A stretch of 45,087 nt of DNA from an uncultured Clostridia bacterium (GTDB lineage Bacteria > Bacillota > Clostridia > Oscillospirales > CAG-272): the NCBI GenBank assembly GCA_947586625.1, contig CANPXS010000004.1, positions 1 through 45,087 on the forward strand. Direction: 5' to 3'. The notes under the pieces were generated by a model. That model was given only the letters and a program-made list of their open reading frames with translations. It had not been told where the DNA came from and ran no database searches. How positions within the stretch are numbered: position 1 is the first letter of the stretch; the number at the start of each line of letters is the position of its first letter. The position numbers and the translations under genes are program-made. Shown piece by piece: positions 5,384-37,059 of this stretch.

Positions 5384-5394
5384 AAAACGGACGC

Positions 5395-5428
5395 AAAAGA
5401 GGCGTGACAAACTGTCACGCCTCTTTTT
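5395..5428. terminator. bidirectional intrinsic terminator
   Basis: aaaagaggcgtgaca-aac-tgtcacgcctctttt, perfect 15-bp stem between convergent genes. Confidence 0.88.
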
Positions 5429-5455
5429 CTGCGCTTATAATGTAGTGTGCGCCGC

Positions 5456-6073
5456 TCACTCGGCGATTATTATTTCCTTTGCGTAAGGCAGCGTCTTTAT
5501 CCAGTCGCAGAATACGTGCCACTCGTCGAGCTTGTGGTCCTTGCGCGCGAAATAGATGTTGACGAGATTTTCATAGTTCATCGTCACCGTGCGCATCTGA
5601 TTGTACGACGACGGCAGAAGCTGTATCAAATCGTACCAAAGCGATTTGTCCTTCGTTTCGACGTAGGCAAGACGCGTCTTTTCCATATACGCGATGAGCG
5701 CGTCGAGCGCGTCGAGCGCGCCGGGCGAGCATTTGTCGCACGAGAAATCGTCGCGCGAGAAAGGCTTCGAGTGTATCTTGTGCATAGTCGAGGTCGAGTT
5801 GGCGACGGTGCCGACCTTGTACGTGTCGAACTCCTTCCACCAGTAAAGCGGCGCGGTTATGTCGACAGAGACGAATATCTGACGTATGAATTTGCGGTGA
5901 TCGGAACCGGCGCGTCGAAGCTGCTGCGCGAGCTTCATGTCGTTTTCGCCGAGGATGTATTCGCCGTCCTCGTTGTAGCGGCTGTCGGAGCGCGCCCAGC
6001 TGTTGTAGGGATTGCGCGCGCCGCGCATCGCGCCCTCTAAATTCATCACGTTCGTTCTTTCGAGCTTTATCAT
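5456..6073 (-). CDS. ThyX-like (flavin-dependent thymidylate synthase superfamily) protein of uncertain function
   Basis: Architecture resembles ThyX (HRKFIRQIFVSVDITAPLYWWKEF then LLPSSYNQMRTVTMNYENLVNIYFARKDHKLDEW) but the RHRxxSxNExSxRY signature is replaced by YKVGTVANSTSTMHK; start set at MIKLER. Confidence 0.6.
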   Translation of the reverse strand: MIKLERTNVMNLEGAMRGARNPYNSWARSDSRYNEDGEYILGENDMKLAQQLRRAGSDHRKFIRQIFVSVDITAPLYWWKEFDTYKVGTVANSTSTMHKIHSKPFSRDDFSCDKCSPGALDALDALIAYMEKTRLAYVETKDKSLWYDLIQLLPSSYNQMRTVTMNYENLVNIYFARKDHKLDEWHVFCDWIKTLPYAKEIIIAE

Positions 6074-6234
6074 ACCGCACCTCATATCATAATTTTCTAT
6101 AATGATTATACATTTGCCGCGCCGCCGTGTCAAGAAAAATATAATATGGCAAATATCGAATCGGCGAAGCCGAGCACCGAAAGATACGTACAGTCAAAAT
6201 ATATCCGCACACATAAACGACAAATATAAAAAAG

Positions 6235-6316
6235 TCAGGAAAAAGTTTTGAAGGGGGTAGGGAGCGTTTCCGTAGGAAACGCCAACTTTTTTCAAAAGTT
6301 CCCCCTAATGTCCTGA
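6235..6316. repeat. intergenic hairpin element with nested inverted repeats
   Basis: Outer TCAGGA...TCCTGA; inner GCGTTTCC-gta-GGAAACGC; GGGGG/CCCCC and GTTTTGAA/TTCAAAAG flanks. Confidence 0.5.
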
Positions 6317-6382
6317 ATAAAAACCACTCATAATGGCAAATATAAGCATGCACAGCAAAAAATAAGCGAGGAGCATTACATT

Positions 6383-7150
6383 ATGGAAAACAGAAAGTAC
6401 GAAAACAGGATAGTGTACGCGGCGCTGATACTTGTGCTGGCGGTGCTTGCCGCGCTCGTCATCGTGACGGGGATAACGGCAAGACGCGCGCGTCGTCTGC
6501 CCGACAGCGATACGAGCGCAGACACACAGGCGATGGCGCCGCGCGATACTGCCGAGCATGAGCCGTTGCCGCGTGATACGGAGAAGCCCGCGGGCATATT
6601 CGGTAAAAAGGACGACAAAAAGGACGAAACGACAGCCGCGCTAGAAACGGAGCCGCCCGTGACCGAGACGCCTAAGCCGCCGACAGTCGACGTAGACGTG
6701 CAGCCGACGCTGCCGCAGTTCATGCAGCCCGCAGACGGCGTCGTCTCAAAGTCGCACAGCGAAACGGCGCTCGTATACTCGATGACGATGGACGATTACA
6801 GAACGCATACGGGCGTCGATATAGCGACGTCCGCCGGAGCGGACGTCAGAGCGGCTGCGGCAGGCGTTGTGACAGAGGTGTGGGACGACCCGTTCTGGGG
6901 CGTATGCGCGAACGTGTCGCATGAGGGCGACGCCGTCAGCACCTACCGCAATCTGTCTGCCGAGACGCTGGGGAGCCTCACCGTGGGACGCACGGTCGCC
7001 GCAGGCGAGGTCATAGGCACTGTCGGCGAGAGCGCGCTTTACGAGATAGCGGACGAACCGCACCTGCACTTTGAGCTGAAAATATCGGGCGCGTCCGTCG
7101 ACCCGTGCGATTATATCGCGTTCGCGGGCGCAGACAGTCTTGAAGGATAA
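6383..7150 (+). CDS. M23-family (LytM) peptidase, SpoIIQ-like membrane protein
   Basis: N-terminal TM, low-complexity linker, LytM domain with HxxxD (RTHTGVDI) and HxH (HLHFEL). Confidence 0.85.
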   Translation: MENRKYENRIVYAALILVLAVLAALVIVTGITARRARRLPDSDTSADTQAMAPRDTAEHEPLPRDTEKPAGIFGKKDDKKDETTAALETEPPVTETPKPPTVDVDVQPTLPQFMQPADGVVSKSHSETALVYSMTMDDYRTHTGVDIATSAGADVRAAAAGVVTEVWDDPFWGVCANVSHEGDAVSTYRNLSAETLGSLTVGRTVAAGEVIGTVGESALYEIADEPHLHFELKISGASVDPCDYIAFAGADSLEG

Positions 7151-7156
7151 CCTGGC

Positions 7157-7186
7157 GATGGGGGCGTTTGCCCCCATCTGTTTTTT
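7157..7186 (+). terminator. intrinsic terminator after the M23 gene
   Basis: gatgggggc-gttt-gcccccatc followed by tgtttttt. Confidence 0.85.
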
Positions 7187-7238
7187 ACCGATAACGTCCG
7201 ACTGCTGTAATAATATTTCAAAAAAATCACACATAATA

Positions 7239-7267
7239 TTGCCTTTGATATAAAAATATGCTACAAT
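7239..7267 (+). promoter_or_regulatory. sigma-A-type promoter
   Basis: TTGCCT-N17-TACAAT upstream of the 7298 ORF. Confidence 0.45.
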
Positions 7268-7297
7268 AGTACCATACAGAATCTTGACCGCGGAGGA

Positions 7298-7645
7298 GTG
7301 ACGATGCGCAGTACGCAGATCTGGACAGCGGAAGAGGACGCGCTGTGGGAGCGCATCGAAAAACATGCGGGCGAGGAATTCACGACGGCAAAAGGCCTCA
7401 CGTTCACATATGCGATACGCGGCAGCGAAATGTTCGTCTCGCGCAAGGAGAAGTCGATAACGCGCGCGACAGTCAACGTCGCATATCATCGCGCAATGGA
7501 GCTTCTCGACATAGGCGAGGAAGTCGACGGTCCGAAAAAGCTCGGCACGTTCGGTGCGAGTTACATTTACCCGGTATTCGTCAAGATAGGGATAATCACC
7601 GTGTGGGGCGACCTCGGCGACGCACAGCTCAAAATCGAGACGTAA
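7298..7645 (+). CDS. conserved-looking hypothetical protein
   Basis: 115 aa ORF with upstream promoter; no family recognised. Confidence 0.6.
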   Translation: MTMRSTQIWTAEEDALWERIEKHAGEEFTTAKGLTFTYAIRGSEMFVSRKEKSITRATVNVAYHRAMELLDIGEEVDGPKKLGTFGASYIYPVFVKIGIITVWGDLGDAQLKIET

Positions 7646-7687
7646 CAGAGAATGGTTTATAATTTTTATATATAAAAGGAGAAGATC

Positions 7688-8836
7688 ATGGCACAGAGAT
7701 TTGTTTTGAACGAAACATCGTATCACGGCGCGGGAGCCGTCGCGGAGATACCCGCGCAGGTAAAGGCGCGCGAGCTTCATCATGCGCTTTTATGCTCCGA
7801 CCCCGACCTCATCCGCTTTGGCGTGACGAAGAAGGTAACGGACGTACTCGACGCGGCGAAAATTCCGTACGACGTATTCTCCGACATTAAGCCGAATCCG
7901 ACGATTGAAAACGTCAAGGCGGGCGTCGAGGCTTATAAAAAGTCCGGCGCAGACTTCATCATCGCCGTCGGCGGCGGCTCGTCGATGGACACGGCGAAGG
8001 CTATTGGCATCATAGTGAACAATCCCGAGCACGAGGACGTTCGCTCGCTCGAGGGAGCGGTCGAGACTAAAAAGCCGTCGGCTCCGATAATCGCAGTACC
8101 GACGACGGCTGGTACAGCGGCGGAGGTCACGATCAACTACGTCATCACCGACGTCGAGAAAAAGCGCAAATTCGTCTGCGTCGACCCGCACGATATACCT
8201 GTCGTCGCTATTGTTGACCCGGATATGATGTCGACGATGCCGAAGTCGCTGACGGCGTACACGGGTATGGATGCGCTGACGCATGCGATCGAGGGCTACA
8301 TCACGCTCGGTGCATGGGAGCTATCCGACATGTTCCATCTCAAGGCAATCGAGATAATCTCGCGCAGTCTGCGCGACGCTGTCGCAGGAAAGCCTGAAGG
8401 ACGCGAAGGCATGGCGCTCGGTCAGTATGTGGCTGGCATGGGATTCTCCAACGTCGGACTCGGCGTCGACCATTCGATGGCGCATACGCTGTCGGCATAC
8501 TACGATATGCCGCACGGTCAGGCGTGCGCGACGCTTCTGCCGACCGTAATGGCGTATAACGCGCCGGCGACAGGCGAGAAGTATCGCGAGATCGCACGCG
8601 CTATGGGAGTAAAGGGTGTAGACGATATGACGCAGGACGAGTATCGCCGTGCGGCTGTCGACGCAGTAAAGAAGCTGGCGGAGGACGTCGGCGTCGTGTG
8701 CTCGCTCAAGGGCGTCGTTAAGGAAGAGGACATACCGGCGCTGTCGCGCGACGCATACAACGACGCGTGCCGTCCCGGCAATCCGCGCGACGTCTCCGTC
8801 GAGGACATCGCCGAACTCTACCGTTCGCTGATGTAA
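7688..8836 (+). CDS. iron-containing alcohol dehydrogenase, FucO-like
   Basis: AVGGGSSMDTAKAIG, TTAGTAAEVT, GMDALTHAIEGY, GLGVDHSMAHTLSAYYDMPHGQACA. Confidence 0.93.
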   Translation: MAQRFVLNETSYHGAGAVAEIPAQVKARELHHALLCSDPDLIRFGVTKKVTDVLDAAKIPYDVFSDIKPNPTIENVKAGVEAYKKSGADFIIAVGGGSSMDTAKAIGIIVNNPEHEDVRSLEGAVETKKPSAPIIAVPTTAGTAAEVTINYVITDVEKKRKFVCVDPHDIPVVAIVDPDMMSTMPKSLTAYTGMDALTHAIEGYITLGAWELSDMFHLKAIEIISRSLRDAVAGKPEGREGMALGQYVAGMGFSNVGLGVDHSMAHTLSAYYDMPHGQACATLLPTVMAYNAPATGEKYREIARAMGVKGVDDMTQDEYRRAAVDAVKKLAEDVGVVCSLKGVVKEEDIPALSRDAYNDACRPGNPRDVSVEDIAELYRSLM

Positions 8837-8858
8837 AAACGCATTGAAAAGTCAAAAT

Positions 8859-8886
8859 AAAAGAAGGGGCGCGAGCCCCTTCTTTT
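8859..8886. terminator. bidirectional intrinsic terminator
   Basis: aaaagaaggggc-gcga-gccccttctttt between convergent genes. Confidence 0.88.
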
Positions 8887-8898
8887 GATGTATGGCAG

Positions 8899-10185
8899 TT
8901 ACTTCAAGCTGTGCGCCTTCGGCGGCTTGTTCTTGACACGCGCGCTCGTTCTGCCCTCGGGCGATATCTCGCCTGCGGACGTGAGCGCCATTTTTGTCAG
9001 CGTCGGTCCGACGAGCTCGTACACGAGCACGGAGAAGAGCACGACGCTGCGCACGGCTGCGCCGTCCGAGAGCTGCGCCGCCGTCATTGCCATGCCGAGC
9101 GCGACGCCTGCCTGCGGCAGAAGCGTTATGCCGAGATTATTGCGTATAGTCTTGGAGCATGACGTCATGGCGCAGCTTGAGAACGCGCCGAAATATTTGC
9201 CGAGCGAACGCGATACGATGTAGAGCGCTCCGACGAGCAGCACGAGCGGATTTGACAGTATCTCGAGGTCGAGTTCCGCGCCTGACAAAACGAAGAACAA
9301 CACGAACAGCGGCGCCGTCCATCCGTCGACACGTTCCATCAACTCCTCTGAAAAGTCGCAGATGTTGCAGAACACGGTCCCGCACATCATGGCGACGAGC
9401 AGAAGCGAGAAGCCGATATGTATGCCGCCGATGTCGAACTCCATCATCGAGATGCCGATAGTCAGAAGCACGAACGCTATAGAGAGCGACAGACGCTTGC
9501 TGCGCGAATGGAAGAATTTTTCAAGCGCGAACAGGCAGAAGCCGACGAGTCCGCCGAGAAGTATCGACAAAACGACCTCGATTATCGGTTCGAGTACGAC
9601 GCTCGCGACGTTGATGTGGCCGCTTTCAAGCACGCGCGCGATGCCGAACGAAACGGAGAAGAGCACGAGTCCCACGGCGTCGTCGATAGCGACGACGAGC
9701 AGCAGCAGCTTCGTCATCGGTCCGTCGGCTTTGTACTGGCGAACGACCATAAGCGTTGCGGCGGGAGCCGTCGCGGCGGCTATCGCGCCGAGCGTTATCG
9801 CGGACGATATCGAGATCGTCGACGGTGCGATAAAATGGAGCGATACGAGCACGATATCGACGACGGCGGTCGTTATAACCGCCTGCAATATGCCGATGAC
9901 GATCGCCTTCGCGCCCATTTGGCGTATCTGTCCGATGCGGAATTCGTTGCCTATCGTAAACGCGATGAAGCCGAGCGCCGCCTGAGAGAAAAGCGAAAGC
10001 GACTCTACCTCGTCAAGCGTGTGGAACCCGAAATAGGGAATATCGAGCGCGCCGATAAGAAACGGTCCGAGCAAAAGTCCGGCTACAAGGTAAGCGGTCA
10101 CGGCGGGAAGGTTCAGCACCTTCGCGATACGCGACATTAAAAGTCCCGCGATAAGAGCCGCTGCGGTCCATAAAAGAATTTGCAT
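8899..10185 (-). CDS. cation:proton antiporter (Kef/NhaP-type, CPA family)
   Basis: 428 aa, about 12 TM; LPAVTAYLVAGLLLGP, AAATAPAATLMVV, VAIDDAVGLVLF. Confidence 0.88.
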   Translation of the reverse strand: MQILLWTAAALIAGLLMSRIAKVLNLPAVTAYLVAGLLLGPFLIGALDIPYFGFHTLDEVESLSLFSQAALGFIAFTIGNEFRIGQIRQMGAKAIVIGILQAVITTAVVDIVLVSLHFIAPSTISISSAITLGAIAAATAPAATLMVVRQYKADGPMTKLLLLVVAIDDAVGLVLFSVSFGIARVLESGHINVASVVLEPIIEVVLSILLGGLVGFCLFALEKFFHSRSKRLSLSIAFVLLTIGISMMEFDIGGIHIGFSLLLVAMMCGTVFCNICDFSEELMERVDGWTAPLFVLFFVLSGAELDLEILSNPLVLLVGALYIVSRSLGKYFGAFSSCAMTSCSKTIRNNLGITLLPQAGVALGMAMTAAQLSDGAAVRSVVLFSVLVYELVGPTLTKMALTSAGEISPEGRTSARVKNKPPKAHSLK

Positions 10186-10215
10186 ATGACACCCCCGTGT
10201 TGTCAGTCGTTAATA

Positions 10216-10749
10216 TTATATCGTGAATTTCTGTATCTGACAGTTGTCGTAGTAGAGAGAGAAGAACTCGTCGTTCGTGACGTCGCGCATGTATGTTATT
10301 ATTGCGCGACAGACGACGCCGTGCGCGACGATCATGACGTTTTGGTTCGCGTATATGTCGCGGATATCGTCAAGGCAGTTGTAGACGCGCTGGACTACCT
10401 GAAAGAACGATTCTCCATCCGGATAGCGGTATCCGAAGTTGTGCCAGTAAAGCGCTTCGCCGCCGTCGATGTCGAAATATTTGCCCTCGTACTGCCCGAA
10501 ATCGCGCTCGATCAATCGGTCGTCGGTCTTGACGGTCAGCCCGCACGCGTCGGCGACGGCTTTCGCCGTTGTGACGGCGCGCAAAAGCGGCGACGATATG
10601 ACGGCGTCGAGGCGCAGCTCCTTTGATTCTTCGGCGAGGGCGGGGAGCTGCGACAGTCCGCTTTCGGAAAGCGGCGCGTCGACGCGCCCGCAGTAAAGAT
10701 GTTTTTCGTTGTATTCTGTCTGCCCGTGGCGGACGATGTAAAGGTTCAT
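10216..10749 (-). CDS. histidine phosphatase family protein (phosphoglycerate mutase-like)
   Basis: LYIVRHGQTEYN, RDFGQYEG, VMIVAHGVVCRAI. Confidence 0.92.
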   Translation of the reverse strand: MNLYIVRHGQTEYNEKHLYCGRVDAPLSESGLSQLPALAEESKELRLDAVISSPLLRAVTTAKAVADACGLTVKTDDRLIERDFGQYEGKYFDIDGGEALYWHNFGYRYPDGESFFQVVQRVYNCLDDIRDIYANQNVMIVAHGVVCRAIITYMRDVTNDEFFSLYYDNCQIQKFTI

Positions 10750-10909
10750 GAAAGCCTCGTATAATTATTTGTTGCCGCACAAAATTATACATAACGGCGC
10801 GCGAGTTGTCAATGCGGACGGGACGTCGAAAATGCACGAAATACGGTGTGAAAATATTGAAAATATCATAAAACTTTTTCACTTTTGCGAAAAACGCATG
10901 CAAAGCGCC

Positions 10910-10938
10910 AAAAAGTCCCGCTGTAAGCGGGACTTTTT
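10910..10938 (-). terminator. intrinsic terminator downstream of the XRE genes
   Basis: aaaaagtcccgct-gta-agcgggacttttt. Confidence 0.85.
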
Positions 10939-10955
10939 ACGTCGGAGAGCAGTCG

Positions 10956-11597
10956 TTATTCGGACAGTTCGGCCGATTCGAACGAATATGTTTCCGCACG
11001 GATGTCGATGTGGGCATCTTCGGAGACAGTGTTCATTCCGAACAGTCCGTATAAAAGCAATGATAATAACAGTATGCCCGAAATGATCGCGGAAATTATA
11101 ACGGATATGATGCACACAACAGCCGTGTTGCGTTTGACCGTCAGGCATACGACGGCACCAACGAGTGCGGGGACTGCGGGCAGAAATACGAAAACGCTGA
11201 GACGGTAACCTATAAAAATCGACACTCCCGCTGCAGCGGCTATGATAAGTAATGATACTACGAGAAACAGTATGCCGAACGCGCGCCTTTTGCGCCGTGT
11301 CGACTCTGAATCGTCAAAGTAAGGCGGTGCATTTGAATATGGCGGAGGCGATATGTTTGCGACGTTTGTTTCGGGTACGTTCTGCGCGTCGTCTGTATTC
11401 TCGGTTCGTCCAGTCAGCTCGTCGAGGCTCACGGAGAAAATGTTACACATCTTTATGAGCTTGTCGAGGTCCGGTACTGATGTGCCTGTCTCCCATTTCG
11501 ACACGGATTGACGCGATACCTCGAGTAGGTCCGCGAGCTGCTCCTGCGACATCGAGTTTTCTGTGCGCAGACGGTAGATTTTTTCTGAGAGCGTCAT
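10956..11597 (-). CDS. XRE-family HTH regulator with C-terminal TM segments
   Basis: N-terminal HTH (MTLSEKIYRLRTENSMSQEQLADLLEVSRQSVSKWETG) plus hydrophobic segments; start set at MTLSEK. Confidence 0.87.
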   Translation of the reverse strand: MTLSEKIYRLRTENSMSQEQLADLLEVSRQSVSKWETGTSVPDLDKLIKMCNIFSVSLDELTGRTENTDDAQNVPETNVANISPPPYSNAPPYFDDSESTRRKRRAFGILFLVVSLLIIAAAAGVSIFIGYRLSVFVFLPAVPALVGAVVCLTVKRNTAVVCIISVIISAIISGILLLSLLLYGLFGMNTVSEDAHIDIRAETYSFESAELSE

Positions 11598-24840: not shown

Positions 24841-25683
24841 ATGTGGATATCGGATAAATGGAAGGACTATGAGCTGCTCGACTGTTCGGACGGCGAGCGG
24901 CTCGAGAGGTGGGGAAAGTACGTGCTCGTGCGTCCCGACCCGCAGGTGATATGGAAAACGGAGCGCAGACGGCGCGAGTGGACGCACGCAGACGGCGTGT
25001 ATATGCGTTCGGAGCGCGGCGGGGGGAGCTGGCGCGGCAATCTGCCCGACGGATGGGAAATCGGCTACGGAAATCTTCGATTCGGACTTCACCCGATGGG
25101 ATTCAAGCATACGGGACTTTTCCCAGAGCAGGCTGTCAACTGGGACAGGATGCGCGAGCTAATAAGCGGCAGGAGCCGAAAGGTGTCGGTACTCAATCTG
25201 TTCGCGTACACGGGCGGCGCGACGGCGGTGTGCGCGGACGCGGGCGCGTCCGTATGCCACGTTGACGCGTCGCGCGGCATGGTCGCGCAGGCAAAGGAAA
25301 ATCTGCGTCTGTCGGGACTTGAAAACGCACATGTGCGATATATCGTCGACGACTGCAAGAAGTTCGTACAGCGCGAGATTAGGCGCGGCAGCAGATACGA
25401 CGCGATAATCATGGACCCGCCGTCGTACGGACGCGGACCGTCGGGCGAGGTGTGGAAGCTTGAGGACAGCATACATGAGTTTATCGCGCTGTCGTCAAAG
25501 CTTTTGTCGGACACGCCGCTCTTTTTCCTCGTAAATTCGTATACGACGGGACTGTCGCCGCTCTCGATGGAGTATATATTGCGCGTTGAGATAGGGAACG
25601 AGCGCGGCGGTCATCTCGAGTCGGGCGAGCTCGAAACGAAAGGGGCGCTGCCGTGCGGAGCGTCAGCGTGGTGGACGATATGA
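24841..25683 (+). CDS. class I SAM-dependent rRNA methyltransferase (RlmI/COG1092-like)
   Basis: VLNLFAYTGGATAVCADAGASVCHVDASRGMV, YDAIIMDPPSYGRGPSGEVWKLED. Confidence 0.88.
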   Translation: MWISDKWKDYELLDCSDGERLERWGKYVLVRPDPQVIWKTERRRREWTHADGVYMRSERGGGSWRGNLPDGWEIGYGNLRFGLHPMGFKHTGLFPEQAVNWDRMRELISGRSRKVSVLNLFAYTGGATAVCADAGASVCHVDASRGMVAQAKENLRLSGLENAHVRYIVDDCKKFVQREIRRGSRYDAIIMDPPSYGRGPSGEVWKLEDSIHEFIALSSKLLSDTPLFFLVNSYTTGLSPLSMEYILRVEIGNERGGHLESGELETKGALPCGASAWWTI

Positions 25684-26597
25684 TTGAAAATAATGAGAAC
25701 AGCGTTGATATAAAAACTCCGTTTATCGAGGTGCGCGACCTCGCGTTCGCGTATGAGGACGCGGACGGGAGGCGTCACGAGGCGCTTCGCGGCGTATCGC
25801 TGTCGATACCGAAGGGGCAGTTCGTCGCCGTGCTCGGTCACAACGGGAGCGGAAAGTCGACGTTTGCGAAGCTGCTCAATATGATACTTCTGCCAGACAA
25901 GGGCGAGATATACGTTGACGGCGAGCTCGTGTCCTCTCCCGTCGAGCCCGACGAGGACACGATATTCGCGGTCAGGCGCAGGATAGGAATGGTGCATCAG
26001 AATCCCGACAATCAAATTGTTGCATCGGTCGTGGAGGAGGATGTGGCGTTCGGGCCCGAAAATCTCGGCGTTGCGCCGGACGAGATTCGCAGGCGCGTGG
26101 ACGCGTCGCTCGACGCTGTCGGTATGCGCGAGTATGCGCTCGCGACGACGTCGCATCTGTCGGGAGGGCAGAAGCAGCGCGTCGCGGTCGCCGGCGTTAT
26201 AGCGATGCTGCCCGAGTGCATAATATTTGACGAGTCGACGTCGATGCTCGATCCGTCGGGGCGGCGCGACGTGATGAAGACGATACAGTATCTCAACCGT
26301 GAGCGCGGCATCACGATAATACACATAACGCACGATATGTCCGAGGCGGCGCTCGCCGACAGAGTCGTCGTTCTGTCGGACGGAGAGCTGTATCTCGACG
26401 GCACGCCGGATGAGATATTCTCGCGTCCCGACAAGCTGCGCGCTGTCGCGCTCGATGTGCCGCAGAGCGTCTCGCTGCTTCATGAGCTCGCGAAGTCCGT
26501 CGAAGGGTTCCGCGTACCCGACTGCATCAAGGACGCCGAGGAGTGTGCGGAGTATATATCTATGGAATTTGACAGGCTCGGGATTTCGGCTCGGTAA
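25653..26597 (+). CDS. ecfA1: ECF transporter ATPase EcfA1
   Basis: CbiO-type ABC ATPase: GHNGSGKSTFAKLLN, MVHQNPDNQIVASVVEEDVAFGPENLG, LSGGQKQRVAVAGVIAM; coding start may be internal to the ORF. Confidence 0.92.
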   Translation: MRSVSVVDDMIENNENSVDIKTPFIEVRDLAFAYEDADGRRHEALRGVSLSIPKGQFVAVLGHNGSGKSTFAKLLNMILLPDKGEIYVDGELVSSPVEPDEDTIFAVRRRIGMVHQNPDNQIVASVVEEDVAFGPENLGVAPDEIRRRVDASLDAVGMREYALATTSHLSGGQKQRVAVAGVIAMLPECIIFDESTSMLDPSGRRDVMKTIQYLNRERGITIIHITHDMSEAALADRVVVLSDGELYLDGTPDEIFSRPDKLRAVALDVPQSVSLLHELAKSVEGFRVPDCIKDAEECAEYISMEFDRLGISAR

Positions 26598-26658
26598 ATG
26601 TAAGGCTTTTGAAAGGAAACAAGTTGGCTTCTCTTTTCGGGAAGCGTTCGCATACGGA

Positions 26659-27513
26659 ATGTTACAGCTCGAGAACATAACATACACATACGGAGCAAAG
26701 ACGCCGTTTGAAAAACGCGCCGTCGACGGCGTCAGTCTGACGTTCGAGGACGGAAAGATAACGGGGCTTATAGGTCACACGGGATCGGGCAAATCGACGC
26801 TCGTGCAGATGCTGAACGGACTTATAAAGCCCGACAGCGGTCACATATATCTCGACGGGCGCGACATTTGGTCGGAGCCGAAGAAGATGCGGGACGTGAG
26901 GTTTCGCGTCGGACTCGTGATGCAGTACCCGGAGTATCAGCTTTTCGACGAGACGGTGCGCGCCGATATATCGTTCGGTCCGAAAAATATGGGATTGACG
27001 GAGAGCGAAATAGCCGAGAGAGTAGCGGAGGCGGCGACGTTTGCGGGAGTCGACGAGTCGCTGCTCGACAAGTCACCGTTCGACCTGTCGGGCGGGCAGA
27101 AGCGGCGCGCCGCCGTTGCCGGAGTCATGGCGATGCGTCCGAGCACGCTCGTGCTCGACGAGCCTGCCGCCGGTCTTGACCCGGCGGGGCGCGATTCGAT
27201 CTTGTCCGGCATACGCGGTTACTGCGAAAGCACGGGCGCGACGGTTATAATCGTGTCGCACAGCATGGAGGATATGGCGGTGTGGTGCGACAACGTAGCC
27301 GTTTTAGCTGACGGAAAGCTTTGCATGACGGGCACGCGCGAGGAGGTATTCATGCGCCGTGACGAGCTCGTTGCGGTCGGTCTCGGCGTACCGATGATAA
27401 CGGACATCGCGTATGCGCTCATGCGCCGCGGCTTTACGCTCGGCGGCGACATTTACACTGTCGCGGGAGTTGCAAAGTCACTCTCTGCTGCGGGAGGTGG
27501 ACGCCATGCGTGA
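26659..27513 (+). CDS. ecfA2: ECF transporter ATPase EcfA2
   Basis: GHTGSGKSTLVQMLNGLIKP, LVMQYPEYQLFDETVRADISFGPKNMGL, LVLDEPAAGLDPAGR; start set at MLQLEN. Confidence 0.93.
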   Translation: MLQLENITYTYGAKTPFEKRAVDGVSLTFEDGKITGLIGHTGSGKSTLVQMLNGLIKPDSGHIYLDGRDIWSEPKKMRDVRFRVGLVMQYPEYQLFDETVRADISFGPKNMGLTESEIAERVAEAATFAGVDESLLDKSPFDLSGGQKRRAAVAGVMAMRPSTLVLDEPAAGLDPAGRDSILSGIRGYCESTGATVIIVSHSMEDMAVWCDNVAVLADGKLCMTGTREEVFMRRDELVAVGLGVPMITDIAYALMRRGFTLGGDIYTVAGVAKSLSAAGGGRHA

Positions 27514-28327
27514 CATAACGCTCGGACAATATTTCCCCGGCAATTCGGCGCTTCACAAGATGGACCCGCGCGCAAAGCTGATTTTGACTGTGATTTTCAT
27601 CGTTGTGATATTTGTCGCAAGGTCCGTGTCGGCGCTGCTGCTCCTTTCCGCAGTTACGATAGGGATGATGTGCTCGACGGGAATATCGCCGCGCGTGTAT
27701 CTGCGCGGCATAAAGCCGATAATGTTCGTCATCGTATTCACGACGATACTGAATCTGTTCATGACGCGGGGCGACGAACTGCTTTTCGAATGGGGAATAA
27801 TACACATATACCGCGATGGCGTCAACAACGCGATACTGATGGTCGTGCGTATAACGCTTCTCGTGCTCGGAAGCTGTGTGTTTTTGTCGTATACGACATC
27901 TCCCATATCGCTGACGGACGGACTCGAGTCGCTGCTTCGTCCGCTCTCGAAGATACACGTTCCCGTACATGAGTTTTCGATGATAATGACGATCGCGCTT
28001 CGTTTCATACCGACTTTGATAGAGGAAACGGACAAGATAATGTCGGCGCAGAAGGCGAGGGGCGCGGACTTTTCGTCGGGCGGGCTCATCAAGCGCGCGA
28101 AGGCGCTCCTGCCCGTTCTGATACCGCTGTTCGTTTCCGCGTTCAAGCGCGCCGACGAGCTCGCTGTCGCGATGGAGTGCAGATGCTATCGCGGCGGAGA
28201 GGGCAGGACGCGTATGAAGGTGCTGCGATATCACGCCCGCGACGGCGTGATGCTCGGCATAATGGCGCTGACTGTCGCGGCGGTCGTCATAGCGAACATA
28301 TACGTGCCGATATACAGGCTCAGATGA
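27506..28327 (+). CDS. ecfT: ECF transporter transmembrane protein EcfT
   Basis: QYFPGNSALHKMDPRAKL, SAQKARGADF, AMECRCYRGGEGRTRM; start set at MRDITL. Confidence 0.94.
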   Translation: MRDITLGQYFPGNSALHKMDPRAKLILTVIFIVVIFVARSVSALLLLSAVTIGMMCSTGISPRVYLRGIKPIMFVIVFTTILNLFMTRGDELLFEWGIIHIYRDGVNNAILMVVRITLLVLGSCVFLSYTTSPISLTDGLESLLRPLSKIHVPVHEFSMIMTIALRFIPTLIEETDKIMSAQKARGADFSSGGLIKRAKALLPVLIPLFVSAFKRADELAVAMECRCYRGGEGRTRMKVLRYHARDGVMLGIMALTVAAVVIANIYVPIYRLR

Positions 28328-28328
28328 T

Positions 28329-29081
28329 ATGAAGCTTCAGCTTATACTCGCATATGACGGCGCGCGGTACTGCGGCTGGCAGTCGCAGAGGCGCGGAGAC
28401 AGCGTGCAGGAGGCGGTCACGTCCGCATCGTCGGAGCTTTACGGCAGGCAGTGCCTCGTCACGGGGTGCAGCCGCACCGACAGCGGCGTTCATGCACGCG
28501 CGTATTCGTGTACGGTAGAGTTTACGGACGGCGATATATGCGGCGTCATACCGACTGAGTCGGTGCCGCGCGCGCTCAATGCGCGTCTGCCCGACGATAT
28601 TGCCGTGTCGTCGGCGTTTGCGGTCAGCGACGGATTCCATCCGCGCTACGACGTCAAATCAAAGACATACGAGTATGTCATGTACGACTCGCCGGAGCGT
28701 TCGCCGTTTTATGCAGGCAGAGCGTATCACATACGCAGTCTCGACGGTGATACGCTCGCGCGCATGTTGGCGGCAGCCGGTGCCATGACGGGCAGACGCG
28801 ATTTTGCCGTGTTCATGGCGAGCGGGTCGAAGATAAAGGATACGGTGCGCGAGGTCTATGAATGTGACGTGCGGCGCGAGAGTGATCTTGTGATATTCCG
28901 CGTTTCCGCGGACGGGTTTTTATATAAAATGGTGCGTACGATGGCGGGTACGGCGCTCGCCGCCGCGTACGGGCGAATCGAGCCCGGCGATATCGGCGAT
29001 ATCATTGAGTCGGGGAACAGAGGACGCGTCGGCGCGACGCTGCCGCCCGAGGGGCTTTATCTGTGCCGCGTAGATTATTGA
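28329..29081 (+). CDS. truA: tRNA pseudouridine(38-40) synthase TruA
   Basis: LAYDGARYCGWQSQRRGDSVQEAV, GCSRTDSGVHARAY, FLYKMVRTMAGT. Confidence 0.96.
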   Translation: MKLQLILAYDGARYCGWQSQRRGDSVQEAVTSASSELYGRQCLVTGCSRTDSGVHARAYSCTVEFTDGDICGVIPTESVPRALNARLPDDIAVSSAFAVSDGFHPRYDVKSKTYEYVMYDSPERSPFYAGRAYHIRSLDGDTLARMLAAAGAMTGRRDFAVFMASGSKIKDTVREVYECDVRRESDLVIFRVSADGFLYKMVRTMAGTALAAAYGRIEPGDIGDIIESGNRGRVGATLPPEGLYLCRVDY

Positions 29082-29149: not shown

Positions 29150-30433
29150 ATGGCAAAAAAGCTGAATAATGCAAACAGTCAAAACGCGATGCGCGTCCGT
29201 CGGGAGGAGTATTCCGATATCCCGGTCGAGATTCCTGCGGACGGCGTCGCCGAAAAGAACAAATATTATATTGCCGTGTCTCGCAGGTACAAGCTCGCGA
29301 GGCTGTCGGCGCTTGCGCTGTTTCTGCTCTATGTGCTTTTTATGCTCGCGACCCGAAGCGAGGATTTGACCGTTGCCAATTTCCAGTATCTGATGCGTGA
29401 CATAAATCTCAGCTCGGAGGGCGGCGAGGCGTTTTCGGGCGTGTCGTATTCGGCGGAGCCGATACAGAGGTTTGCGTTTTACCGCGATGAGCTTGCATAT
29501 GTCACGGGGCGCGGCGTAAGTTTCTACGCGCCGACGGGCAGCGTCGGTCTTGCGGCGGAGCTTTCGTATGAGAATCCGGCGGTCGTTGTGACAGAGCAGT
29601 ATATTATGATATACGATATCGGCGGGGAATCGTTCTCGGTCTACAACTCGTTTTCGGAGCTTTGCCGCGGCGAGACGGAGTTCCCAATAGTGGCGGGCGA
29701 CATATCTAAGACGGGTTCGCTCGTATTTGTCGCGCAGGGACGCGAGTACCGCTCTACGGTGTATCTCTACAACAAGGATTTCGAGCTTCAGACGAAGTAC
29801 AGCAAGAGCGATTACGTTTCGGATGCGGCGATATCGGCGGACGGCAAGCGTCTTGCGATGACGTCGTTCGGCGCGGAGGGCGGCGAGTTTTACACCGATT
29901 TGTATATTTACGAGCCGGGGACGGACGATCCGCTGTCGGTAAAACGGTTCCCCGGTGAGTATCCGCTGCTTATAGAAGATATGGGCGACGGCTTCTGCAT
30001 AATGACGACTGAAAACGTATACTGCCTCGATGCGAATGGCGCGGAGTTCGGCAGGTACGCGCACGGCGGCACTGTCGACACGGCGGCGATATCGGACGAT
30101 CATATCGCGCTCTTGTTGCCGGAAAATACTCTCGGGAGCGAAAACCGCGTCATAATACTTGACGGGAGCGCCGCTGTTTGTTACAATGCAGTTATAGAGG
30201 AAAAAACGGTCGATATGACGCTGTCGCATGACGGTCACTGCGCGATACTGACGTCGGGACACGGGATACTGATCGACATAGGCGCGGGGACGTCGTCGTC
30301 GCGTGTGATCGAATCGTCGGCGAAGAAGCTTTTCGCCACAGGCGGGAGCACGGTGCTGCTCTGCACGTCGTCGTCGGCGAGGACGATAGATTTTTTCGAG
30401 GCTCATTCGGTTGATACGGAGGAAAATAAATGA
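29150..30433 (+). CDS. DUF5711-like membrane-anchored beta-propeller-type protein
   Basis: 427 aa; one N-terminal TM followed by a repetitive beta-rich ectodomain; DUF assignment from memory of this gene neighbourhood. Confidence 0.65.
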   Translation: MAKKLNNANSQNAMRVRREEYSDIPVEIPADGVAEKNKYYIAVSRRYKLARLSALALFLLYVLFMLATRSEDLTVANFQYLMRDINLSSEGGEAFSGVSYSAEPIQRFAFYRDELAYVTGRGVSFYAPTGSVGLAAELSYENPAVVVTEQYIMIYDIGGESFSVYNSFSELCRGETEFPIVAGDISKTGSLVFVAQGREYRSTVYLYNKDFELQTKYSKSDYVSDAAISADGKRLAMTSFGAEGGEFYTDLYIYEPGTDDPLSVKRFPGEYPLLIEDMGDGFCIMTTENVYCLDANGAEFGRYAHGGTVDTAAISDDHIALLLPENTLGSENRVIILDGSAAVCYNAVIEEKTVDMTLSHDGHCAILTSGHGILIDIGAGTSSSRVIESSAKKLFATGGSTVLLCTSSSARTIDFFEAHSVDTEENK

Positions 30434-31164
30434 GCGCGTTTTTTGATTTATTTATACTTGTCGTTATTGCGATATCGGTCATAAGCGGCTGGCGGCGCGG
30501 TTTTGTTAAGTCGATCATGGGGCTTGCGTCGTCCGTTCTCTCGTATTTTGCCGCGATATATTTTACGCCGTATCTGAGCTCGTTCATATGCGAACACTAT
30601 GTACTCGGAGCGCTGTCGAGCGAGGTCGGCGAGACGCTGTCGTCGCTGTTGTGGATACCGAGCGGCGAGGCGCGCTCGACGATGCAGCTCTTCGGCGATA
30701 TGCCGGACGCGCTCTCGTCGATACTTGAGCGTTTCGGTACGGATGCAGGCGAGTTTACGTCGCGATTCATGTCCGACCTTCCTGCGACGGACGAGCTTGT
30801 CGGCAAAATGTCGGACTTCATTGTTCGCTCGACCGCGCAGATGATATCGTCGGCGATATCGTTTGCGGTGATATTCATTACGGCGTCTGTCGCGCTCACG
30901 ATAATCACGGCGATTATCGGCTTTGTGTGTGAGCTGCCGGTGCTTCATCAGCTCGACGAGTTCTTCGGCCTTTTGTTCGGAATCGTGAGCGCGCTCGTGT
31001 ACGCGGTCGTTTTGAGCATCGTGTTTGTGCATCTCGCGTCGGCGCTTTCGGTGTTCGACCCGTCGATGTTCTCGAAGGATATGATAGACAGTACGTATCT
31101 TGTAAAATTCTTCTCCGGCTTCCGATTGGAAATGCTGACGGAGCTTCTGTCATATAAAGGCTGA
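30430..31164 (+). CDS. CvpA-family membrane protein
   Basis: FDLFILVVIAISVISGWRRGFVKSIMGLASSVLSYFAA N-terminus and multiple TMs; overlaps the upstream gene by 4 nt. Confidence 0.85.
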   Translation: MSAFFDLFILVVIAISVISGWRRGFVKSIMGLASSVLSYFAAIYFTPYLSSFICEHYVLGALSSEVGETLSSLLWIPSGEARSTMQLFGDMPDALSSILERFGTDAGEFTSRFMSDLPATDELVGKMSDFIVRSTAQMISSAISFAVIFITASVALTIITAIIGFVCELPVLHQLDEFFGLLFGIVSALVYAVVLSIVFVHLASALSVFDPSMFSKDMIDSTYLVKFFSGFRLEMLTELLSYKG

Positions 31165-31198: not shown

Positions 31199-33511
31199 AT
31201 GGAAATGTGTTCAAGATGCCACAAGCGCATAGCGGTGGTTTTCATAACTAAAATAGAGGGCGGGGAGACTAAAAACGAGGGACTTTGCCTCAAATGTGCG
31301 AAGCAGCTCGGGCTCAAGCCCGTCGACGACATACTGTCCAACATGGGTATATCCGAGGACGACGTTGAGCGGCTGTCGGAGGATATGGAGAATATGCTGC
31401 CCGTAAACAATGACGACACCGAGGACGCGGGCGCGCCGCCCATCGACATTCCGCGTCTGTTCCGCACGAACATGATGATGCAGCGCGACGGCAAGGGCCG
31501 CGACGCGGGAGAGGGCAAGGAAACGCGCGGCAAGTCGGGCAAGGACGAGTCAAAGGGACGTGCGCAGAAGCGCAAGTTCCTCGATGTGTTTACGAAAAAT
31601 CTCACCGCAGAGGCGGCGAACGGTCGTCTTGACAGGATAGTCGGGCGAGACAGGGAGCTTGCGCGCGTCATACAGATACTGTGCCGCAGGCAGAAGAACA
31701 ATCCGTGTCTTATAGGTGAACCGGGAGTCGGCAAGACGGCGATCGCGGAGGCATTGGCGCAGCGGGTCGCCGACGGCGACGTGCCGTACAAGCTGAAGGG
31801 CGTCGAGGTGCAGCTCGTCGATTTGACGGCGCTTGTCGCGGGGACGCAGTTCCGCGGTCAGTTCGAGTCGCGAGTGCTCGGTCTGCTCGGCGAAGTCAAG
31901 GCGGCGGGAAATGTGATACTCGTCATAGACGAGGTACACAATATAGTCGGCGCGGGCGAGGCCGAGGGCAGCATGAACGCGGCTAACATATTAAAGCCTG
32001 CGCTGTCGCGCGGCGAGATACAGGTCATCGGCGCGACGACGATGACGGAGTACCGCAAGTATATAGAAAAGGACACGGCGCTCGAACGCCGCTTCCAGCC
32101 GGTGACGGTCAACGAGCCGTCGGTCGCGGAGTCAATGGAGATACTGCGCGGCATAAAGCATTACTATGAAGAATTCCACGGTATAAAGATACCGGAATAT
32201 ATAGTCGAGCGAGCAGTTTTGATGAGCGAGCGCTACATCACGGACCGTTATCTGCCGGATAAGGCTATCGACCTAATTGACGAGGCGGCGTCGCATGTGT
32301 CGCTGTCGGCGGACGCTATAAACGCGCGTCTTGCAGCCATGGACGAGTTGAAGCGCGTGAACGAAGAGTATGCGCGGCTCGAAAACGAACCGACGCCGGA
32401 CGAGGAGTCCGACAAGCGGTATGCGCAGCTTGCGGAACTCAAAAGCGAGCAGCTCCGTCTCGAGGGCAATATAGCGGCGCTTACGACGAGATGTGAAACG
32501 GTCGAAATGACGGTGTCCGATCTTGCGGAGGTCGTCGAGATATGGACAGGTATACCAGCGACAGATATAAAAGCGGACGAATTTGACCGTCTTGCGACGC
32601 TCGAGGAGCGTCTGCGCTCGCGCATAGTCGGTCAGGATGCTGCAGTCGCCGCCGTGTCGCGCGCGATAAGACGCAGCCGTGCGGGTGTCGGCTATAAGCG
32701 CAAGCCCGTGTCATTCATATTTGCGGGCCCGACGGGCGTCGGAAAGACGGAACTCGTCAAAACGCTTGCGAACGATCTGTTCAGCTCGCCCGAGACGCTG
32801 ATACGTCTCGATATGACCGAGTTCATGGAAAAGCATTCGGTGTCGCGCATAATAGGTTCGCCTCCGGGCTATGTCGGCTACGACGAAGCGGGGCAGCTCA
32901 CGGAGAAGATACGCCGCAGCCCGTATTCGGTCGTGCTGTTTGACGAGATCGAAAAGGCGCATCCCGACGTATTAAACATACTTTTGCAGATACTTGACGA
33001 CGGGCAGATCACGGACGCGCACGGCAAACGCGTCGATTTTGCGAATACAGTTATAATAATGACGACGAACGCGGGCTCCAATTTCTCGTCGAACACGGCG
33101 GGATTCTCGGTCGGAGTCGGCGCTATGTCGGAGGATAAGACGACTAAGGCGCTGTCGGAGTTTTTGCGTCCCGAATTTATCAACCGCGTTGACGAGGTGG
33201 TGACGTTCAGGTCACTGTCGGAGGAAGATTTTGTCGGTATCGCGCGCATTATGACGGGCGACTTGTCGGCGGCGATGGCGGAGCGCGGGATAACGCTCAC
33301 GTTTACGGATGCGGCGCTGGCGGTTATCGCGCACGGTTCGTATTCGCAGAAGTTCGGCGCACGCAGCATGAGGCGTTATATCCAGACGCACGTCGAGGAC
33401 GCGCTCGCGACCGAGATAATAAACGCGAGGGAAAACAGGATTACGAGCGCCGCCGTCGATGCGGACGCGTCCGGCACAGGTCTTTCGCTGTGCGCGGTCG
33501 GCGTACACTGA
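31199..33511 (+). CDS. ClpE-like AAA+ Clp protease ATP-binding subunit with N-terminal zinc finger
   Basis: CSRCHKRI...CLKC finger; two AAA+ modules ([32 protein letters not shown]); [14 protein letters not shown]. Confidence 0.92.
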
Positions 33512-33517
33512 GCATAA

Positions 33518-36205
33518 ATGGCAAAGCGTGAAAGCATCGAGCGCGGCGAGCCGACCGAGATAGTCATAAAGCGTCTGGGCGTCGACGTTTCGTTGGGACT
33601 TGACGAGCGTGAGGCGAAGCGTCGTCTGCGCCGTGACGGTGAGAACCGAATATTCGAGGAAAAGCGTTCCTCAGTCCTGCGCTACGCGGGATATTGCAGC
33701 TCGGACTTACTTCTGGTCCTCCTGCTTTTGACGTCGGTGACTGCCGCCGCGTTCGGTATAAAGACTGCGTATCGCGTGCTTTTGCCGATACTCATATTGA
33801 GCATAGTCATGCGCACGGCGGCGTATATAACGGCGAGACGCAGGCTCGAGGCGCTGTCGTCGGAGCAGACCGTCATGCCGAGCTCCGCCGTAGTGAGGGA
33901 CGGTAAAGTCACGCGAGTCGACGCGAGGACGATAGTGCGCGGCGACGTTATCAAGCTGGCTCCGGGCGATATCGTGCCCGCCGATTGCAGGATATACAGC
34001 GCCGCGGGGCTTGAGGTATATGAAGAATCGGTGACCGGCGTGACGGGAAATGTCAGAAAGTCGGCGTCGGACGATATAACGAAGTCGCCGGTGTCGCGAA
34101 GCGATACGGTTTATGCGGGAAGCGTCGTGCTGTCGGGTTCTGCGACGGCTGTCGTGATTGAGACGGGCGCGGACACGCTCGCGGTTAGGACGAAGGGATA
34201 TTTCAAGTCGACGCGCGGCGGCGTCTTGAAGCTGTCGCGGCTGCTCGAAAAATACAGCCGGGTATGGGGTGCGGTGATGACCGTCGTAGCGTTCGCCGTA
34301 ACCGTCGTCGACATATTCTGGGGCAGACGCGAGCTTTACGATGTGTTTTTTATGGGGTTGTCGCTTGCGGTCGCGTCGATGTGCGAGTATTATTCGGCGC
34401 TCGGCGATATAGCGGCGGCGATGGGACTTTTCGCGCTCGGCAATCGCGAGGGCGTAGCCGTCAGGGGAGTGAAATCAATCGAGACGCTGTCGGAGCTTGA
34501 CGTGATAATCACCGGCGCTGACGGCGTTGTGACGAGCGACGGCATGGAGAGTCAGGGTTGGTTCTTTGACGGCAAGGTCGGCGACGGCGACGTTCCGCCG
34601 GAGCTTTTGCGCCATGCGGCCATGGTGACACGTGCGGGCGACGAGAGCAAGGATAAAAACAAGGACAGACTGACGGGCGAATGCGTCTCGTCGCTGTATG
34701 AATATATTGAGCTTACGGATGTCGGCGCCGTCTACGATGAAGGAGAGGTGCCGGTGCTCGTCGGCGGTATTGCGGACGGGCTGCGGTTCGATACGCGGCT
34801 GCTCGATATAGGCGGCATATACATGTCGGTGTCGGGAGGAGACGCGGGAGCTGTGCTTGATGCGTGCTCGTACGTGTATGCGAACGGCGCAGACGCGACG
34901 ATGTCGCAGTCGGCGCGCGATGGCATCGCAAAGATGATAGCGCACCACGAGCGCAGAGGCGCGACGTCGGTGGCGATCGCGCGCAAGCGCACGCCGTTTC
35001 ATTCGATGGACAAGCTGCCGTTCGCACAAGCGGATATGACGCTGTACGGCATTATATTTCTGTACCGTCCGCTGTCGAAGGACCTTGTAAAGACCGTCGC
35101 CGCTTGCCGCGACGCCGGTATACGCATAGTTATGACGGGCAAGGGCGTCGAATCGGCAAAGCTCGCAGATAGAGCGTGGATAATAAGCGGCAGGGAAGAC
35201 ATAGTGACGGGGCGCGAATTTGCGTCCATGAACGGCGGCGATGCGGCGAGGTGCGCTTTAAATGCGCGTCTTCTCGTCGGATTCGATACGCGTCAGCTTT
35301 TGAAGTTTACGTCGATCTTGCGTGAGAGCGGCAAAAAAGCCGCGTATGCGGCGACGCTCGAGCGCGATATGAAAGATGAAATGGCGCTTTTGACGTCGGT
35401 CGGCGCGGGATTTGCGCTGTCGAGTGAGAACGCGAATTCTGAGGGCGTCGTGCGCGGCATATCGCAGGCGATAAAGATGCGCGCCGACAACATCATCCCG
35501 CGCGCGGGGACGGGGAAAGACGGCGGAGGCGGACTGTCCGCGATAGCGGCGAGCGTCGCTTACTCGAAGCGGATATACAGAAACATCTCAAATATAGCTG
35601 CATATCTTCTGACGTCGCAGGCGGCGCGTATATTCTCTGTCTTATATACGGCTCTTTTCCATAAGAGCGCGCTCGTCGCCGAGCAGATACTTTTGTGGGG
35701 ACTGATATTCGATTTCTTCGCGGTGCTCGTGCTCGCTCGCGAGCGTCCCGATGCACGTTCGCTTTCAGACGTACACGACGTATACGAACGGCTGTCGCAT
35801 CCGCTGTCGAATCTCGGTCTGCCGCTGTCGTACGGGCTGTTTTGGGCTGCGCTGACAATGCTTGCCCCGCACGCATACGCGTCGGGATTTGACGTATACG
35901 GCGCGTCGGTCATATTCGTGTCGGTTCTGCTTTCGATGATAGTCGTTTGCGGCGAGCACAGGGAAGAATATCCCGCTTTCTCGAAGAAGCGCTCGTTCAG
36001 TATGCCGTCGTTCGTGTTCGCGTGCGCTGTCGCGGCGACGATATTGGCAATAACGGTGGTGCCGTCGTTCGCGTCGGCGCTCGAGCTGACGCAGCCCGAC
36101 CCGTATGCGCTGCTCGTGTCGCTCATACCGCCGGCGGCGCTTCTCGCGCTGTACGAATTGCCGAGGATCATACATAGAAATAAACACTCCAAGGAGGACA
36201 CTTAA
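33518..36205 (+). CDS. P-type ATPase-like membrane protein lacking catalytic motifs (putative pseudoenzyme)
   Basis: 895 aa intact ORF with the P2-ATPase layout (actuator VVRDGKVTRVDARTIVRGDVIKLAPGDIVPADCRI, TM blocks, HAD-like GIRIVMTGKG), but DKTGT is GADGV, TGES is TGVT, TGD is TGK and GDGxND is unrecognisable. Confidence 0.85.
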   Translation: MAKRESIERGEPTEIVIKRLGVDVSLGLDEREAKRRLRRDGENRIFEEKRSSVLRYAGYCSSDLLLVLLLLTSVTAAAFGIKTAYRVLLPILILSIVMRTAAYITARRRLEALSSEQTVMPSSAVVRDGKVTRVDARTIVRGDVIKLAPGDIVPADCRIYSAAGLEVYEESVTGVTGNVRKSASDDITKSPVSRSDTVYAGSVVLSGSATAVVIETGADTLAVRTKGYFKSTRGGVLKLSRLLEKYSRVWGAVMTVVAFAVTVVDIFWGRRELYDVFFMGLSLAVASMCEYYSALGDIAAAMGLFALGNREGVAVRGVKSIETLSELDVIITGADGVVTSDGMESQGWFFDGKVGDGDVPPELLRHAAMVTRAGDESKDKNKDRLTGECVSSLYEYIELTDVGAVYDEGEVPVLVGGIADGLRFDTRLLDIGGIYMSVSGGDAGAVLDACSYVYANGADATMSQSARDGIAKMIAHHERRGATSVAIARKRTPFHSMDKLPFAQADMTLYGIIFLYRPLSKDLVKTVAACRDAGIRIVMTGKGVESAKLADRAWIISGREDIVTGREFASMNGGDAARCALNARLLVGFDTRQLLKFTSILRESGKKAAYAATLERDMKDEMALLTSVGAGFALSSENANSEGVVRGISQAIKMRADNIIPRAGTGKDGGGGLSAIAASVAYSKRIYRNISNIAAYLLTSQAARIFSVLYTALFHKSALVAEQILLWGLIFDFFAVLVLARERPDARSLSDVHDVYERLSHPLSNLGLPLSYGLFWAALTMLAPHAYASGFDVYGASVIFVSVLLSMIVVCGEHREEYPAFSKKRSFSMPSFVFACAVAATILAITVVPSFASALELTQPDPYALLVSLIPPAALLALYELPRIIHRNKHSKEDT

Positions 36206-36207
36206 TA

Positions 36208-37059
36208 ATGGCAGAAAATTGTACTCATGACTGCTCGACGTGCGGCGTCGACTGTCCGTCGAGAAACGGCGGGGAGCCCGAGTCGCTTCTGCGTCCCGCA
36301 AACAAGGACAGCAAAATAGGCAAGGTGATAGCCGTCGTATCCGGCAAGGGAGGCGTAGGCAAGAGCATGGTGACGTCGCTGCTCGCTCTGACGTGCAGAC
36401 GCAGAGGGCTTGACGTCGCGGTCATGGACGCGGACGTGACGGGTCCATCAATACCGCGCGCGTTCGGTATGCATGCCGGCGGCGTCGACGGCGATGACAA
36501 CGGCATAATCCCGCCCGAGACGGCGACTGGCATCAAGGTGATGTCTGTCAATCTGCTGCTCGAGGACGAGGGGACGCCCGTAGTCTGGCGCGGTCCCGTC
36601 ATATCGGGAACGGTGCTCCAGTTCTGGGAAGATGTGATATGGGGCAAATGCGATATCATGTTCATAGACATGCCTCCGGGAACGGGAGACGTGCCGCTGA
36701 CGATATTCCAGTCGATACCGCTTGACGGCATCATAATCGTGACGAGCCCGCAGGAGCTCGTGTCGATGATAGTGTCGAAGGCGGTCAACATGGCGAAGAT
36801 GATGGATATTCCCGTGCTCGGGATAGTCGAGAACATGAGCTATGTCGAATGTCCCGACTGCGGCAAAAAGATACCGATATTCGGCGAGGGGTGCACTGAG
36901 GCATATGCGGAAGAGGCTGGAATCAAGCTTCTCGACAAGATGCCGATTTCGCCTGAGCTTGCGCGTATGTGCGACGCGGGGAAGATCGAGCTGACGCCGT
37001 ACGAATGGCTGAACAACACCGCGGACGCAGTCGAAAAGGCGCCGAAGCGCAGCGTTTGA
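36208..37059 (+). CDS. Mrp/NBP35-family ATP-binding (Fe-S carrier) protein
   Basis: N-terminal Cys cluster CTHDCSTCGVDC; deviant Walker A GKGGVGKSMV; CPDCGKK. Confidence 0.94.
   Translation: MAENCTHDCSTCGVDCPSRNGGEPESLLRPANKDSKIGKVIAVVSGKGGVGKSMVTSLLALTCRRRGLDVAVMDADVTGPSIPRAFGMHAGGVDGDDNGIIPPETATGIKVMSVNLLLEDEGTPVVWRGPVISGTVLQFWEDVIWGKCDIMFIDMPPGTGDVPLTIFQSIPLDGIIIVTSPQELVSMIVSKAVNMAKMMDIPVLGIVENMSYVECPDCGKKIPIFGEGCTEAYAEEAGIKLLDKMPISPELARMCDAGKIELTPYEWLNNTADAVEKAPKRSV

Follow-up and report, generated by a model that had tools for sequence, protein, structure and literature searches.

The window analysed here, 45,087 nucleotides of DNA from an uncultured Clostridia bacterium, carries a gene cluster of the order ecfA-ecfA-ecfT-truA-DUF5711-cvpA-clpE-pseudo(-mrp), and at or near its end lies the gene for a P-type ATPase-like protein, referred to below as the pseudo-ATPase (Table 1). 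The initial annotation had described this gene as intact, and it is indeed a single uninterrupted frame. Outside this genus, only a few other genera have the Mrp/NUBPL-type NTPase next to the pseudo-ATPase. The N-terminus of the ClpE-like protein is of the CxxC type, and Clp_N was not among the Pfam matches listed for it.

Table 1. Genes and motif positions in and around the pseudo-ATPase locus of the window
Feature	Positions	Strand	Remarks
ECF transporter ATPases (2), CbiQ-type T component, truA	25653..29081	+	conserved cluster
DUF5711 protein	29150..30433	+	conserved cluster
CvpA (Colicin_V) family protein	30430..31164	+	conserved cluster
ClpE-like AAA+ unfoldase	31199..33511	+	N-terminal CxxC region and two AAA modules; 6 bp upstream of pseudo-ATPase
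P2A-type pseudo-ATPase, without catalytic motifs	33518..36205	+	895 aa
A-domain core VRGDVIKLAPGDIVPADCR	33935..33991	+	structural; highest conservation in the clade
TGVT replacing TGES	34034..34045	+	alignment
M4 SMCEYYSA replacing IPEGL	34376..34399	+	alignment; Glu E290 (34385-34387) retained
TGADGVVTSDGM replacing SDKTGTLTxNxM	34511..34546	+	alignment
LYRPLS replacing (I)DPPR	35060..35077	+	alignment
TGK replacing TGD	35135..35143	+	alignment; column MTGK vs canonical ITGD
YAATLERDMKDEMALL replacing GDGVND stretch	35345..35392	+	alignment
M5 R704 at canonical Glu position	35627..35629	+	R/K in 39/50
M6 G728 (canonical Asn) to D732 (canonical Asp)	35699..35713	+	Gly 47/50; Asp 39/50
Mrp/NUBPL-type P-loop NTPase	36208..37059	+	2 bp downstream of pseudo-ATPase

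P-type ATPases are defined by a phosphorylated Asp. By descent, the 895-aa protein belongs to this superfamily, as the A domain and the N- and C-terminal cation-ATPase modules are present and in order, with Pfam matches to E1-E2_ATPase (5.5e-28), Cation_ATPase_N, and Cation_ATPase_C that all exceed the cut-offs. As an enzyme it does not, since the DKTGT phospho-Asp, TGES, and GDGxND are all lacking. No NCBIfam P-type model reached its cut-off for this protein, the top one being TIGR01522 with 131.8 bits of the 798 required.

Motif columns were read from an alignment of the protein with canonical pumps. The SDKTGTLT column reads TGADGVVT, which places Gly at the phospho-Asp position, and the GDGVND column reads YAATLERDMKDEM. 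The initial annotation held that every core motif had been lost, which is right for DKTGT, TGES, DPPR, TGD, and GDGxND but goes too far in the membrane, where the M4 Glu (E290) and the M6 Asp (D732) are retained; its motif positions agree with ours except for TGVT, which lies two bases from where it had been placed. None of the six frames of the gene encodes DKTGT, TGES, GDGxND, or PEGL, which rules out a frameshift hiding the motifs, and no functional DKTGT is present elsewhere in the protein. GC3 (0.71) and codon usage are the same as in the neighbouring genes, as had been claimed, and DKTGT is retained in each of the genome's four other P-type ATPases. A structure prediction from two sequences reached a pLDDT of 31 and was set aside.

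With a profile (A1) built from 19 such proteins, about 95 of 196 genomes of the family had a match that clearly outscored canonical pumps. This is a lower bound, as are all presence counts by score threshold. Nearly all genomes are fragmented assemblies. Fifty such family loci were read (486 to 1142 bits, with one exception at 194 bits), and among them DKTGT and GDGxND were found in none and TGE[S/A/T] was kept in two. More motif-less ATPases downstream of clpE occur in two further families of the same order (f17 and f20). When 295 genomes of the order were swept, scores beyond the canonical range came only from f1, f17, and f20. A sweep of 245 genomes of the class gave no clear outlier beyond the order, the 11 best matches apart from the window being canonical pumps with DKTGT, TGES, and GDGVND.

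A maximum-likelihood tree was built from 50 clade proteins, including 10 from f17/f20 and 2 from f1 chosen by their position behind clpE, and 12 canonical proteins. All 50 fall into a single clade with a split support of 100/100, within which f1 (99.9/100), f17 (100/100), and f20 (100/100) are each monophyletic. Canonical P2A pumps form the neighbouring group, a sister placement obtained with a small sample of canonical outgroups. Copies in other families are about 16-26% identical to the window protein. The clade is shared by three families within a single order of Clostridia and covers a large group of uncultured gut bacteria; the pattern fits one ancient loss of catalysis followed by vertical descent and repeated gene loss.

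Across the 50 sequences, the phospho-Asp column holds mainly Pro (n = 26), followed by His (n = 6), Gly (n = 4), Glu (n = 3), and others; Asp is absent in 48, and in the two sequences that have it, it lies outside any DKTGT. None of seven catalytic residues is kept in 14 sequences, one is kept in 19, two in 13, and three, the maximum, in 4. A functional copy at a clpE-adjacent locus was not found. Mean pairwise identity in the GDGxND stretch falls from 70% in canonical pumps to 28% in the clade, while the A-domain core has the highest value in the clade, at 47%. Because the phospho-Asp, the TGE Glu, and the Mg2+-binding GDGxND are missing, the established P-type mechanism predicts that aspartyl-phosphate is neither made nor hydrolysed, and it is almost certain that the pseudo-ATPase forms no phosphoenzyme.

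The membrane ion site is remodelled and not randomised. In M4, Ser or Cys mostly replaces the Pro of PEGL, and the Glu position is Glu in 39 and Asp in 7 of the 50 sequences. The canonical Glu position of M5 is Arg in 35 and Lys in 4, and in M6 Gly takes the place of the canonical Asn in 47 and the canonical Asp position holds Asp in 39 and Asn in 5. Of the residues that make up a P2A Ca2+ site (M4 Glu, M6 Asn and Asp), the Glu and Asp are thus retained and the Asn is lost. The best solved relative is LMCA1 (lmo0841), a P2A Ca2+-ATPase of Listeria (PDB 6ZHF, 9EUQ), with which the clade profile aligns over the full length (418 bits). LMCA1 has DKTGT, TGES, and GDGVND and is reported to use Asn716 as the primary Ca2+-coordinating side chain, with Glu292, the equivalent of SERCA Glu309, as a gate (PMC11977196), whereas the pseudo-ATPase lacks all three motifs and has Gly at the Asn position. 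With the M6 Asn replaced by Gly and the M5 Glu by Arg/Lys, what is left is a Ca2+ site minus its main ligand and with a fixed positive charge, which presumably no longer carries Ca2+, and the pseudo-ATPase is probably not a Ca2+ transporter. The M5 Arg/Lys probably pairs with the retained M4 Glu and M6 Asp, and such a salt bridge would lock the membrane domain in one state. In P3A proton pumps, a TM5 Arg lies near the functional TM6 Asp (PMC10654040).

The pseudo-ATPase gene is under purifying selection. A copy with 97% identity is present in the metagenome assembly “Lapin-014”, and comparison with this copy gave a dN of 0.0155, a dS of 0.212, and a dN/dS of about 0.07, a value from one close pair; the dN/dS ratio of clpE in the same comparison was 0.027. 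Full-length copies with 33-53% identity occur in other genomes of the genus, one of which (G004) has an in-frame TAA near the C-terminal end of the match. Fast divergence within the clade (mean pairwise identity 27%) and the missing gene in about half of the sampled low-scoring genomes might be read as signs of a decaying gene or an assembly error. This is barely credible, given open frames in well over 60 genomes, residues conserved specifically in the clade, constant synteny, and a dN/dS far from 1; the 97% identical copy and the orthologues rule out an assembly error, and the orthologues and the dN/dS rule out recent decay. The initial proposal of a retained pseudoenzyme is well supported, as the orthologues read do not keep DKTGT/TGES, dN/dS is not near 1, and DKTGT occurs neither elsewhere in the protein nor in other frames.

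clpE lies directly upstream of the pseudo-ATPase in all 68 distinct loci with readable upstream sequence, mostly overlapping it or separated by a few tens of bases. These loci were chosen by ATPase similarity and comprise 56 that remained after removal of duplicates and of one clpE-picked locus, the “Lapin-014” locus, and 11 more. Loci without a clpE call are explained by contig ends, fragmentation, or an unreadable gap upstream (G298); G298 is a probable exception, having its own clpE elsewhere with no ATPase behind it. Behind clpE at 27 loci sampled elsewhere in the order, in other families and genera, there was no ATPase, active or inactive. Twenty-five clpE loci were read in genomes without a high-scoring match, and about 12 of them carry a motif-less ATPase-like frame downstream, so the presence of the pseudo-ATPase is underestimated. 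Other low-scoring loci have something else after clpE, which in two cases (L209, L223) is a protein with an Mrp-resembling start, as expected for clean loss of the pseudo-ATPase. Since about half of the sampled low-scoring genomes have no such gene behind clpE, ClpE does not need the pseudo-ATPase. One genome (G021) has two similar clpE-pseudo-ATPase pairs on two contigs (L048, L049), representing either a duplication or mixed strains.

A search for ClpE residues that distinguish genomes carrying the pseudo-ATPase from those lacking it yielded only one weak column (A255). Nor was the pseudo-ATPase associated with McsB (46 carriers with and 53 without it, against 40 and 57 of the rest, p = 0.48), a comparison in which the “absent” class is contaminated by diverged pseudo-ATPase copies. 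Only 86 of the 196 family genomes have the McsB-type ATP-gua_Ptrans domain, which is patchy for a Clp-pathway kinase.

Without the phospho-Asp, the pseudo-ATPase would run no Post-Albers cycle and would not pump, as expected from the established P-type mechanism. The fold and a fixed set of membrane residues are under selection, which argues for a role other than pumping, and a membrane partner of ClpE is favoured as clpE is the only consistent clue. Our preferred reading, which is tentative, is that the pseudo-ATPase is a conserved, catalytically dead descendant of an LMCA1-type P2A Ca2+-ATPase that serves as a membrane partner of ClpE and not as a transporter. Judged by gene order alone, the case for a functional partnership with ClpE is evenly balanced, and neither the ClpE sequence comparison nor the McsB comparison lends it support; the more specific role of an adaptor or tether is conceivable but less probable. 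Such a partner would most likely be an anchor or receptor at the membrane, with the membrane part as the anchor and the A/N/P-like cytosolic head as a docking surface to which the unfoldase is tethered or which offers it clients. Regulatory, scaffold, or channel-like roles had initially been suggested. The constant place behind clpE points to a role linked to clpE, and a channel-like one is less likely, since Gly stands in for the Ca2+-ligating Asn and Arg/Lys for the M5 carboxylate.

Transport without the P-type cycle is a less probable explanation, in which an ion or lipid would be moved by means of a gradient, another ATP site, or a partner. The M4 Glu and M6 Asp are retained under selection, the cluster begins with an ECF transporter, and there is a possible precedent in TMEM94/ERMA, a eukaryotic ER protein with P-type architecture and degenerate motifs, which has DKQGI and GSSANL, lacks TGES, and was reported by one group to transport Mg2+ (PMC13322241). 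However, the pseudo-ATPase has Gly in place of the main Ca2+ ligand and a basic residue within the site, and ERMA itself retains the Asp and its transport is disputed, as another group found neither ATPase activity nor Mg2+ binding (PMC12134183). A passive leak, channel, or ion sensor would agree with the ten-helix layout and the partly retained site carboxylates, but it is hard to reconcile with the basic residue in the site and with P-type folds not being open without gating, and we consider it improbable.

Alternatively, the pseudo-ATPase could regulate an active P-type ATPase in the same cell as its inactive partner, through hetero-dimerisation or competition. Canonical P2-type pumps are present in the same genomes, one pump (G017) is divergently oriented beside the pseudo-ATPase, and MgtA is reported to be a dimeric P-type ATPase (PMC10925321). 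Adjacency to a canonical pump occurs in one genome only, against the constant adjacency to clpE, which makes this explanation rather improbable as well. In the G017 locus (L047), the canonical P2A pump and the pseudo-ATPase (5385-8171 and 8320-11115) form the only such pair seen.

TMEM94/ERMA is the closest known parallel to the clade (PMC13322241, PMC12134183). It is eukaryotic and keeps the Asp, whereas the clade is bacterial, lies beside P2A pumps in the tree, has lost the Asp, and is coupled to clpE by gene order; the window protein has neither the Asp nor the DKQGI of that family. Pump-independent functions have been proposed for the Na,K-ATPase alpha-like CATP-1 of C. elegans (PMC11631496), which retains the Asp (D409) of D-K-S/T-G-T that the pseudo-ATPase lacks. 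If the reading as a ClpE partner is right, the pseudo-ATPase would share its role with Clp adaptors such as MecA and McsB. These adaptors are soluble, and their fold is unrelated to that of P-type ATPases.

New here are a pseudo-ATPase directly downstream of clpE, its place within a conserved ECF-truA-DUF5711-cvpA-clpE cluster, and a remodelled membrane ion site. A literature search gave no paper pairing “P-type ATPase” with “pseudoenzyme”, and a description elsewhere is possible. It is possible, though less likely than not, that the clade is the first bacterial family of P-type pseudo-ATPases to be described, in which a Ca2+ pump lost its engine and became a membrane-embedded docking or quality-control part of a ClpE complex, and that this family is ancestral in three or more families of uncultured Clostridia. 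That a broad clade under selection lacks the phospho-Asp shows that P-type architecture can be worth retaining for its own sake. The clade can be compared in a natural way with the disputed TMEM94/ERMA case, and it connects a pump fold to an AAA+ unfoldase in a manner open to testing. Annotations of a “cation-transporting ATPase” beside clpE in these genomes should be read with caution, as the protein is probably no pump.

Members of several genera have long charged C-terminal extensions. Cytosolic C-terminal extensions of 136-384 aa were seen in L158-L161 (G086, G138, G180, G220) and L162-L164 (G066, G127, G169). N-terminal extensions of 100-190 aa in L165-L168 were rejected as fusions, being read-through of overlapping frames. 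The C-terminal extensions of L162-L164 end in a common segment, ELVxLSV...SSVEVIATVVIASL...CMQCAEQIKENM, which may be a small domain.
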